Assembly: GCA_905181955.1 (NCBI GenBank)
Contig: CAJJAC010000001.1
Coordinates: forward strand, 1-64,000
Reading direction: 5' to 3'
Source of the DNA: SAR86 cluster bacterium SAR86B
GTDB taxonomy: Bacteria; Pseudomonadota; Gammaproteobacteria; Magnimaribacterales; D2472
Length of the DNA: 64,000 bases
The notes under the pieces are model-generated. The model saw only the letters and a list, made by a program, of their open reading frames with translations. It had not been told where the DNA came from and made no database searches. Each line of letters opens with the position of its first letter. Positions within the stretch are counted from its first letter, which is position 1. Positions 7,235 to 58,330 of this stretch are shown one piece after another. A program made the translations under genes and the position numbers.

Positions 7235-7252
7235 TTGTATTTATACTAAATT

Positions 7253-7269
7253 TTGTAGTAAAACTACAA
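7253..7269. promoter_or_regulatory. Palindromic operator TTGTAGT-AAA-ACTACAA
   Basis: This is a perfect 7+3+7 inverted repeat, TTGTAGTAAAACTACAA. Its exact reverse complement occurs at 58301-58317 upstream of isocitrate lyase. It ends 45 bp before a putative -35 box. A matching half-site ACTACAA lies at 7347-7353, just after the putative -10 box. It is a likely binding site for a dimeric regulator, whose identity is unknown. Confidence 0.65.
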
Positions 7270-7314: not shown

Positions 7315-7343
7315 TTGACATTATTATTTCTCTAAATTAATTT
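7315..7343 (+). promoter_or_regulatory. Putative sigma-70 promoter of the cupredoxin lipoprotein gene
   Basis: TTGACA at 7315 is a perfect -35 box. After exactly 17 bp comes TAATTT as a weaker -10 box. The predicted start is about 80 bp upstream of the ATG at 7429, leaving a modest leader. The palindrome at 7253 lies upstream at about -90. Confidence 0.45.
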
Positions 7344-7428
7344 GTCACTACAAATACTGCCTTGCTTTGTTATATTGTTTATTTCATTGACGCCCAGTTC
7401 ATAGAGCCTTTTGGTTCAGGATTGCGTT

Positions 7429-9318
7429 ATGAATAAAAGAATTATAAAAAAATTACTCCCCCTAATAGTATTAACAGCATGTGGTGGTGGCGGTGGTGGA
7501 GGCGGATCTAGTTCAGGTGGCGGAGGTGACGGTTATAACCCCAACAACGCTCCCGTGATAGATTCCTCTACTACCACTTATTCAGTATTAGAAAATCAAA
7601 CTTCAGCCTTTACAGTTTCAGCATCAGATGCTGATGGTGATACATTAACCTACTCTATAAGTTCAGGAGATGATTCAGCTCTTATGAGTATTAATTCCTC
7701 CGGAGTTGTAACATTCATAAGTTCCCCAGATTTTGAATTACCTTCAGATGCTAATACTGATAATAATTATCAAATTACGGTTACAGTCTCAGATGGCTCC
7801 CTAACAGATAGTGAAAACTTCACTGTAACGGTAACAAACGATACATCCGATGATGTTACAACAACTAATTTTGACGGAGTTTTAATTAGAGATGGCTACA
7901 TTCAATCTGCAACTGTTTGCATGGCGGTCACTAATGCAGACGGAATTGATACTTGTGTAGATGCTACTTATTCAACTACAACTAACGCAGATGGTTCATT
8001 TTCGTTAGAAATAGATGACAATATTACTGCGACTATTAAATTATTAGCTCAGGATGGTTTTAATCCTGTCACTGATGATGCGGATTCATTTACTATGGGC
8101 TTAATTGACCCTACCACTGATCAAAATCTTGTTATTTCACCATTAAGTACAATGCTTTATGGTGATAATAGATTCTCTTATGAATCCCTTAAGGAAAAGC
8201 TTGGTGTTAACTCAAACTTCATGATTCGTTTTGATGATCCTTATCTTAGCGTTAACGATGCTGCATCAAATAAAGCAGCCTTAGTAAATACCCAGCTGCT
8301 GATGATGTATGAGGCCCTAAGTGCTCTGCAAAGTCAGTCAGGTGTTTCGGATAATTTAACAGCTGTTTCCACAATTAACGATGCTATTTTTAATCGAGAT
8401 GCTTCAACCGAAACCTCCCTTGGTGATACAACTCTAGTAAGAGACGTGCTACTTAATCTTGATTTACCTAATTACACAGTTACAAATGCACAACTAGAGA
8501 GCCTATCAGGAAGTTTTTCATCTTTTTTACAAAAGGTTTATGTTGATTCAAATAATGAGCAGGCATATTTCTCTATGACAGCAAGAGATCATGTGACTCC
8601 TCTTCTAAAAGGAATTTTGGATGATACAGTTGATAGCACTGAAATTGATCAAATAATTTTTAATACCTTGCAATGGATCTCAGATAAAAGTTCAAGAACA
8701 AATCTTACAGATGTTGAAGGCTTTAGAACAACATCCTATACAGTTGGAAATAGCGGCTCTGCGTACTATACAGTTGATGGAGTTAATGCAGATTCAACTG
8801 CGTTAGTAATATATGCAAAAGTTGGAGATACTATAGTCTTTGAGCCAACCGCAAATAGTGTTTTTACTGCACATCCATTTGAAATATCTACTACTCAAAA
8901 TGATACCGCTGGTAATAATAATATTGGTTCAAATCAAGGATGGAGCCAGTCAATTAATAGTCTTACAGTAACGGCAGATACGCCAACAGTTCTATATCCT
9001 CATTGTGGAGTGCATTCAGGTATGTACACTAACGGAAGAATAGAGATAGTGACAATATTTGATCAATCAAAACTAGATATTAATGAAACTTCTGGTGCAT
9101 TAGAGGTAAATGGTACTGTTTCTGTAGGCCCATACAAAGGTGCCTCAGGATTTACACACAAAGTCTATTTAAGAACTGCTGATGCTGGAGATAGTCAACA
9201 TGCACATGAGTTTAAAGAATATCCTGGAATAACTTTCTATATGCCAGCTGGGCAGGGTTATCACGGACAAGATACAACTTCAGGGGAACTTAGCTTTAAA
9301 ACTAAGTCGCATTATTAA
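7429..9318 (+). CDS. Polyglycine lipoprotein with cadherin-like and cupredoxin-like domains
   Basis: The signal peptide MNKRIIKKLLPLIVLTAC ends in a lipobox, and the anchor cysteine is followed by a polyglycine/serine linker. A cadherin-like Ig domain comes next (residues about 35-135, with SVLENQTS and ASDADGDTLTYSI). A long middle region is not recognised. Near residues 435-540 lies a blue-copper-like domain, with a histidine in FTAHPFEIS and the cluster YPHCGVHSGM giving Cys, His and Met ligands. A short His-containing tail follows. It is likely anchored outside the inner membrane or on the cell surface, binding copper for electron transfer. ATG 7429 is preferred over the upstream TTG because it starts the signal peptide. 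Confidence 0.8.
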   Translation: MNKRIIKKLLPLIVLTACGGGGGGGGSSSGGGGDGYNPNNAPVIDSSTTTYSVLENQTSAFTVSASDADGDTLTYSISSGDDSALMSINSSGVVTFISSPDFELPSDANTDNNYQITVTVSDGSLTDSENFTVTVTNDTSDDVTTTNFDGVLIRDGYIQSATVCMAVTNADGIDTCVDATYSTTTNADGSFSLEIDDNITATIKLLAQDGFNPVTDDADSFTMGLIDPTTDQNLVISPLSTMLYGDNRFSYESLKEKLGVNSNFMIRFDDPYLSVNDAASNKAALVNTQLLMMYEALSALQSQSGVSDNLTAVSTINDAIFNRDASTETSLGDTTLVRDVLLNLDLPNYTVTNAQLESLSGSFSSFLQKVYVDSNNEQAYFSMTARDHVTPLLKGILDDTVDSTEIDQIIFNTLQWISDKSSRTNLTDVEGFRTTSYTVGNSGSAYYTVDGVNADSTALVIYAKVGDTIVFEPTANSVFTAHPFEISTTQNDTAGNNNIGSNQGWSQSINSLTVTADTPTVLYPHCGVHSGMYTNGRIEIVTIFDQSKLDINETSGALEVNGTVSVGPYKGASGFTHKVYLRTADAGDSQHAHEFKEYPGITFYMPAGQGYHGQDTTSGELSFKTKSHY

Positions 9319-56611: not shown

Positions 56612-58192
56612 TTAGAACTGATTCATAGTATTGTCTTCACCAGAAGCTTTTAAAGCCGCCTCTCCTGCAAAATACTCTTTATGATCGTCTCCCATATCAG
56701 ATCCAGCCATATTTTGATGTTTCACACAGGCAATACCTTGACGAATCTCTTTTCTTTGAACACCAGCAACGTAACCAAGCATACCTTCTTCACCAAAGTA
56801 ATCTTTAGCCAGATTGTCAGTAGATAAAGCTGCGGTATGGTAAGTAGGTAATGTTATCAGGTGATGGAAAATTCCAGCTTCTTTAGCTGCATCAGCTTGG
56901 AAGGTTTTAATCTTATTATCAGCCTCTCTGGAAAGATCAGTATCGTCGTATGATTCATCCATAAGCTCATCTCTTTGGTAGCTTGCTAAATCTTTTCCAT
57001 CAGCTTCCCATGCGTCAAATACTTGCTGGCGAAAATTAAGAGTCCAATTAAATGAGGGACTATTGTTGTAGACTAATTTTGCATTAGGGACAACTTTTTT
57101 AATTTCATCCATCATTGCTCCAATCTGCTCAATGTGTGGTTTTTCAGTTTCGATCCAAATAAGATCAGCACCATTTTGTAAGCTAGTTATAGAATCAAGA
57201 ATACATCTCGCTTCACCAGTTCCATCTTTAAATCTATATAGATTACTTGGCAATCTTTTTGGTCTAACCAGTTTTCCATCTTGATTAATTAAAACATCAC
57301 CATGATTCATATCTTCAGGTGAAACTTCCTCAACATCTAAGAATGAATTATATTGATCCCCCAAATCACCTTTTTCACGTGTTACAGCGATTTGCTTAGT
57401 GAGCCCAGCCCCCAATGAATCTGTTCTAGCTACAATAACCCCATCATCAATACCTAGTTCTAAGAATGCATATCTAACAGCATTAATCTTCGCTAAGAAA
57501 TCAGAGTGAGGAACAGTAACTTTTCCATCCTGATGGCCGCATTGTTTTTCATCGGAAACTTGATTTTCAATTTGTATACAACAAGCACCAGCTTCAATCA
57601 TTTGTTTAGCCATAAGATAGGTAGCTTCAGCATTACCAAATCCTGCATCAATGTCTGCAATTATTGGAACTACATGTGTTTCAAAGTTATCGATTTTATC
57701 TTGAATATCTTTTTTAGCATCCCCATTAGCAGAGTCTAGCTGTCTAAAAAGCCCACCTAGTTCTCTGGCATCTGCCTGCCTTAAAAACGTATAGAGTTCT
57801 GCAATAAGACTAGCTACGGATGTTTTTTCGTGCATGGACTGATCTGGGAGTGGTCCGAAGTCAGATCTTAAAGCGGCAATCATCCATCCAGACAGGTAGA
57901 GATACTTTTTATCATTGCTGCCAAAATGTTTCTTAATAGAGATCATTTTTTGCTGACCTATAAAACCATGCCAACAACCAAGAGATTGGGTATAAGCTGA
58001 TGTGTCAGCATCATACGCATCCATATCAGTTCTCATTATTGCAGATGTATATTTAGCAACATCTAAACCTGTTTTAAAACGGTTTTGCAATCGCATCCTA
58101 GCAACATAATTAGGGTCAATAGCTGCCCATGAATCATTATTCATAGAAGATACATCATTTGCTTTATTTACTTCATCATTAAGGTTAGACAT
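56612..58192 (-). CDS. aceA: Isocitrate lyase
   Basis: Isocitrate lyase splits isocitrate into succinate and glyoxylate, the entry to the glyoxylate shunt. The catalytic loop is in DEKQCGHQDGKVTVPHSDF (KQCGH, long-form type found in Pseudomonas), and IADIDAGFGNAEATYLMAK is the metal-binding strand. The 526-residue length fits this class. The track starts at TTG 58207, but the ATG at 58192 is preferred because a GGAG ribosome binding site sits 9 bp before it. It has its own promoter and the shared palindrome upstream. Expression on acetate or fatty acids is expected. Confidence 0.95.
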   Translation of the reverse strand: MSNLNDEVNKANDVSSMNNDSWAAIDPNYVARMRLQNRFKTGLDVAKYTSAIMRTDMDAYDADTSAYTQSLGCWHGFIGQQKMISIKKHFGSNDKKYLYLSGWMIAALRSDFGPLPDQSMHEKTSVASLIAELYTFLRQADARELGGLFRQLDSANGDAKKDIQDKIDNFETHVVPIIADIDAGFGNAEATYLMAKQMIEAGACCIQIENQVSDEKQCGHQDGKVTVPHSDFLAKINAVRYAFLELGIDDGVIVARTDSLGAGLTKQIAVTREKGDLGDQYNSFLDVEEVSPEDMNHGDVLINQDGKLVRPKRLPSNLYRFKDGTGEARCILDSITSLQNGADLIWIETEKPHIEQIGAMMDEIKKVVPNAKLVYNNSPSFNWTLNFRQQVFDAWEADGKDLASYQRDELMDESYDDTDLSREADNKIKTFQADAAKEAGIFHHLITLPTYHTAALSTDNLAKDYFGEEGMLGYVAGVQRKEIRQGIACVKHQNMAGSDMGDDHKEYFAGEAALKASGEDNTMNQF

Positions 58193-58225
58193 TGTAGTTA
58201 ACTCCAAGTTGTCAATATGTAGTGC

Positions 58226-58254
58226 AGTACACTTGAATTGATAAAAAAAGTCAA
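58226..58254 (-). promoter_or_regulatory. Putative sigma-70 promoter of aceA
   Basis: On the minus strand, TTGACT (-35) and TGTACT (-10) are separated by exactly 17 bp. Immediately after the -10 box comes ACTACAT, nearly the half-site of the palindrome at 58301. Another ACTACAA overlaps the start codon. Confidence 0.45.
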
Positions 58255-58300: not shown

Positions 58301-58317
58301 TTGTAGTTTTACTACAA
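58301..58317. promoter_or_regulatory. Palindromic operator TTGTAGT-TTT-ACTACAA upstream of aceA
   Basis: This is the second copy of the 17-bp palindrome, the exact reverse complement of 7253-7269. It lies 46 bp upstream of the putative aceA -35 box, nearly the same spacing as at the other site. It sits between purB and aceA, which points to regulation of aceA. Confidence 0.65.
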
Positions 58318-58330
58318 AAAAAAGAGTTTT

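Follow-up and report, generated by a model that had tools for sequence, protein, structure and literature searches.

A conserved two-site promoter layout in SAR86 bacteria points to a lineage-specific variant of the RccR regulon

Two copies of a palindrome in a 64,000-nucleotide stretch of the SAR86B genome (hereafter the window) appear to be operators of the RpiR-family regulator RccR, and comparison across the family points to a real, conserved regulatory element and to a form of the RccR regulon specific to this lineage. The type of operator is already known. The new features are a two-site promoter layout, added target genes, and a probable change of ligand.

The 17-mer TTGTAGTAAAACTACAA is present at positions 7253 to 7269 on the plus strand, and its exact reverse complement is found at 58301 to 58317, as the initial annotation reported. 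The identity between the copies spans 19 bp (7251 to 7269 versus 58301 to 58319), and TTGTAGTAAAACTACAA contains the 15-bp sequence TGTAGTAAAACTACA. The accompanying statement that such a match is very unlikely by chance was overstated. Under an order-3 Markov model of the window (33% GC), approximately three repeated 17-mers are expected per 64 kb from composition, so that the repeat alone proves little and would fit a chance repeat without function. The number of sites in the window was equalled in none of 100 shuffles. Significance derives from the perfect palindrome together with a whole layout that is conserved at orthologous promoters. This conservation, seen in several genera, and the zero control matches in the 107-genome pattern search described below refute the chance explanation, whose probability we consider negligible. 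It is this comparative evidence that decides, and it indicates a genuine palindrome with a functional role.

Both copies precede promoters with the described geometry. In the first, the predicted distal RccR operator at 7253 to 7269, found at the equivalent position in G001, G003, G004, and further SAR86 genera, is followed on the plus strand by a predicted -35 box, TTGACA (7315 to 7320), which starts 45 bp past the end of the site, and by a predicted -10 box, TAATTT (7338 to 7343), a weak match placed from the sequence and the cross-promoter consensus. A proximal half-site, CACTACA, coincides with the predicted transcription start (7346 to 7352). The target gene (7429 to 9318, plus strand) encodes a lipoprotein with an Ig-like region and a C-terminal cupredoxin-type H..C..H..M motif (AHPF...YPHCGVHSGMY). 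In Pfam, this protein matches an Ig-like domain only, with no cupredoxin match; its orthologs conserve the His/Cys/His/Met residues that make up a type-1 copper site. The second promoter, on the minus strand, comprises the predicted distal operator (58301 to 58317), a predicted -35 box, TTGACT (58249 to 58254), starting 46 bp past the site at 58254, a predicted -10 box, TGTACT (58226 to 58231), and the half-site CACTACA (58218 to 58224). It precedes aceA (56612 to 58192, minus strand), an isocitrate lyase gene of the PRK06498 type (1,027 bits; cut-off, 446). The 17-bp spacers between the boxes and the half-site just downstream of each -10 box were likewise borne out. The boxes themselves are still predictions: TTGAC is strongly conserved, 30 to 31 bp before CACTACA, while the second base of the -10 box is atypical. 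An additional half-site that had been noted at the aceA start codon (58193 to 58198) is missing from G003, a relative in the same genus, and probably reflects chance. Elsewhere in the window, near its start, a direct repeat of approximately 63 bp (two exact blocks) occurs at 89 to 151 and 1112 to 1174, about 1 kb apart.

The source genome assembly (1.29 Mb in 13 contigs, 88.8% complete) contains four exact copies of the core GTAGTAAAACTAC. Three lie upstream of the lipoprotein gene, aceA, and pntA (L003), and the fourth (C8:47235) sits in the end of dsbB but, on the minus strand, points to pckA (L042). A fifth site, GTAGCAAAACTAC at C7:168888, differs by one change and lies ahead of sdhC in an sdhCDAB-sucA operon. 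In all five promoters, the 17-bp site is followed by TTGAC at approximately 45 to 46 bp and by a CACTACA half-site at approximately 75 to 77 bp; this layout is absent from the weaker matches in the source genome, which differ from the full site at two positions or from the core at one. The pntA (about 1560 to 1600 of L003) and pckA promoters, which serve unrelated genes, are also identical over 39 bases running from TTGACT to CACTACAAA.

The distal palindrome and the proximal half-site were combined into a bipartite pattern, TAGTNNNACTACN{68,90}CACTACA, and searched in 107 genomes of the family. The pattern matched in 72 of these, and a reversed-pattern control gave zero matches. Nearly all matches are located upstream of six gene families: among 98 distinct promoters, 42 precede aceA, 20 pntA, 16 the lipoprotein gene, 8 pckA, 6 sdhC, 5 a cupin-like gene, and 1 another gene. 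A check proposed in the initial annotation was thereby run, and the motif proved to lie upstream of genes and to be conserved in orthologous aceA promoters. The cupin-like cases belong to genus g5 (L068, L112, L113, L116, and L118), where the two-site promoter precedes a gene for a small protein without a Pfam match. Outside the family, a search of 367 genomes of the class returned one match, which lacks TTGAC, fewer than the reversed control; the strict pattern used there would miss the site pair of Pseudomonas aceE.

The spacing of the two sites is strikingly constant, within a tolerance of about 1 bp. Over 119 promoters, the span is either 96 to 99 bp (94 promoters) or 85 to 87 bp (25 promoters), and no other span in the range of 57 to 109 bp (57 to 84, 88 to 95, or 100 to 109) occurs among the family genomes. 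A second search with shorter gaps yielded spans of 85 to 86 bp only, all at aceA of genus g8. Measured from half-site to half-site, the distances are 84 ± 1 bp, or 8.0 helical turns at 10.5 bp per turn, and 73 ± 1 bp, or 7.0 turns, at g8 aceA. In the shifted class, the distance from the palindrome to the -35 box changes from 47 to 50 bp to 36 to 38 bp, and that from the -35 box to CACTACA is unchanged at 30 bp. Both classes are present together in g8 genomes such as G060, G071, and G083. Since the 7-turn class occurs at a single gene in a single genus, it probably arose once, through an ancestral 11-bp change, and by itself it is therefore weak evidence for phasing. Stronger evidence comes from the ±1-bp constancy at unrelated promoters within diverged intergenic DNA. 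The proximal site has no conserved left half in either a 15-bp or a 28-bp arrangement, leaving CACTACA as a half-site only; control via 28-bp sites (TGTAGT-N16-ACTACA) was rejected, as no conserved left half stands 16 bp before the proximal ACTACA.

One full-length RpiR/SIS gene is present in the source genome (G000:C3:37486-38328, minus strand), and its product carries HTH_6 (RpiR) and SIS domains. The closest solved structures are those of Pseudomonas aeruginosa RccR (8k3b and the near-identical 8ju9; E value of about 1e-75), with which the protein shares 47% identity, compared to 35% with Escherichia coli HexR. Its named relatives are SAR86 genomes first, an order that also places the window in this lineage, then gammaproteobacteria, and then Pseudomonas proteins carrying the RccR residue signature. 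Judged by these comparisons, the regulator would be the SAR86 ortholog of RccR. Assignment to HexR, which belongs to the same RpiR family, has a KDPG-type SIS pocket, and uses a similar inverted-repeat site with TTGT...ACAA ends (TTGT-N7-8-ACAA), is suggested by the best NCBIfam model for the SAR86 protein, that of HexR, at 233.8 bits. However, this score falls short of the cut-off of 296, and the model separates HexR from RccR poorly because P. aeruginosa RccR itself narrowly exceeds that cut-off (305.6 bits). The lower identity to HexR, the retention of the RccR residues H148 and H164 (N and V in E. coli HexR), and a target set that is that of RccR and not zwf/edd (HexR targets zwf, edd, and gap) make a HexR-type regulator highly unlikely. 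The GT-N3-AC centre of the palindrome resembles the sites of GntR-family regulators of the PdhR/LldR type, which could in principle use it; a GntR domain was not found in the 88.8%-complete source assembly, which largely refutes this proposal and leaves it scarcely credible.

The presence of the RccR gene matches that of the motif across the family genomes, the outcome of a second check raised in the initial annotation. Among 19 genomes that are at least 90% complete, 13 carry both RccR and the pattern, 2 carry RccR without an exact pattern, 4 carry neither, and none has the pattern without RccR. In the 10 genomes of genus g3 (up to 93% complete), both the RccR ortholog and the pattern are absent, with weak SIS-domain matches only. 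Genome G048 (one contig, 92%) also lacks both; its genus mates carry both. RccR-bearing genomes without an exact match include some in g2 and g10, as well as G068 and G074. In some less complete genomes, including G025 to G027, the pattern is present and RccR was not found, as missing contigs would lead one to expect. The proximal element by itself (TTGAC-N24-26-CACTACA) is likewise tied to RccR: 16 RccR-bearing genomes hold 52 copies (control, 7), and the 10 g3 genomes hold one. The conserved layout, the known RccR targets, and the absence of both RccR and the pattern from g3 together support the original proposal of one regulator acting at a distal and a proximal site, with RccR as the predicted regulator.

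The closest known counterpart of the predicted regulon is that of Pseudomonas. In Pseudomonas fluorescens, RccR binds 15-bp sites, one of which is TGTAGTAAAACTACA at aceE, and controls aceA, glcB, pntAA, pckA, gap, aceEF, and itself (PMC5489143). The SAR86 sites hold an identical 15-bp operator, with TGTAGT/ACTACA arms and a 3-bp linker; aceA, pntA, and pckA are targets in both lineages, and the regulators are orthologous tetrameric RpiR/SIS proteins that share most KDPG-contact residues (PMC5489143, PMC10810197). P. fluorescens aceE has two RccR sites with a reported separation of 68 bp, which would make 83 bp from start to start if the figure was measured between sites, near the 84 bp of SAR86, and at several Pseudomonas promoters sites overlap the start, like the proximal SAR86 site at the predicted start. 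The systems differ in that aceA and pntAA of Pseudomonas use 28-bp sites (TGTAGT-N16-ACTACA), whereas SAR86 combines a 15-bp site with a proximal half-site in fixed phase. SAR86 also adds sdhC, the cupredoxin-like lipoprotein gene, and, in one genus, the cupin-like gene, and K270 and R277 are changed. Finally, Pseudomonas has an autoregulatory rccR operator (TGTAGTATAACTACA, 55 to 63 bp upstream in four Pseudomonas rccR promoters), unlike the five SAR86 rccR promoters examined, which lack such an operator. A weak site near rccR (L005, two mismatches) was discarded; it lies inside a neighbouring helicase-like gene and lacks a proximal element.

Operator identity, regulon, fixed phase, and co-occurrence with RccR can all be read from the sequences; RccR binding, looping, repression as in Pseudomonas, and a ligand are what we infer. 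It is quite probable that the palindromes are distal operators of SAR86 RccR, from which a tetramer loops to CACTACA, with the ligand setting joint control. RccR would occupy the complete palindrome, roughly 90 bp ahead of the predicted transcription start, and the second subunit pair of the same tetramer would contact CACTACA at the promoter start. This contact would lie on the same helix face at a distance of 8.0 turns (7.0 for the aceA promoters of one genus), so that a small loop would block the promoter. A sugar-phosphate-like signal in the SIS domains would set operator occupancy and, with it, joint control over aceA in the glyoxylate shunt, pntA in NADPH supply, pckA in gluconeogenesis, the sdh-suc operon, and the gene for the cupredoxin-like lipoprotein. 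Sites of class-I activators are also helix-phased relative to the promoter. The main competing explanation is that RccR on the distal palindrome is an upstream activator touching RNA polymerase in class-I style, near -90 or -80, with CACTACA being either start-site sequence or a repressor half-site in its own right and the phase reflecting polymerase contact instead of looping. The conserved distance from palindrome to -35 box would fit this, as would the atypical -10 box, like that of many activated promoters. Yet CACTACA is identical to the RccR half-site, genomes without RccR almost completely lack its promoter-linked form, and aceA, pntAA, and pckA are repressed by RccR in P. fluorescens (PMC5489143). 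Activation thus deserves some weight but is unlikely, and a repressing tetramer that bridges the distal site and the promoter half-site is the most likely arrangement.

The ligand of this regulator may have changed. In the SAR86 orthologs examined, six of the nine residues that contact KDPG are retained (S139, H148, R152, H164, S183, and S185); in the same proteins, S188 is replaced by T, R277 mostly by K, and K270 by A, V, or I. In P. aeruginosa RccR, the K270A substitution abolishes KDPG binding. KDPG aldolase scored above the cut-off in 24 of the 107 family genomes and in none of the 34 genomes of g8, the largest genus, most of which nevertheless keep RccR, many with operators. The loss of K270 and the retention of RccR in g8 without a recognisable KDPG aldolase suggest that a signal other than KDPG, or one additional to it, acts on SAR86 RccR. 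In the source genome, which does have KDPG aldolase, its gene eda adjoins an edd-like dehydratase gene (L198:1486-3563, G000:C5). Several genomes of genera g2 and g9 have a second, more distant RpiR gene (33 to 36% identical to RccR) approximately 8 kb from eda, for example at G097:C5:6656 and 15018 and at G095:C3:224901 and 233263; it may be a local Entner-Doudoroff regulator. A fuller scenario, which we put forward tentatively and at somewhat less than even confidence, is a rewired RccR that has kept its operator and its glyoxylate/gluconeogenesis regulon, has lost KDPG sensing in favour of another phosphorylated metabolite, works through a two-site loop fixed at 8 (or 7) turns, and also drives the cupredoxin-like lipoprotein.

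In SAR86, an abundant ocean bacterium, RccR thus seems to govern a small set of genes for acetate- or fat-like food together with a copper-type surface protein. In a small, streamlined genome with one such regulator, the target set can be read from the sequence with almost no background, and the result is a testable map of the SAR86 switch to carbon of the acetate and fatty-acid type. It would place an unstudied cupredoxin-like lipoprotein in this response. The fixed helical spacing offers a clean natural case for loop-type control, and what RccR senses where the Entner-Doudoroff pathway is missing becomes a directly testable question.
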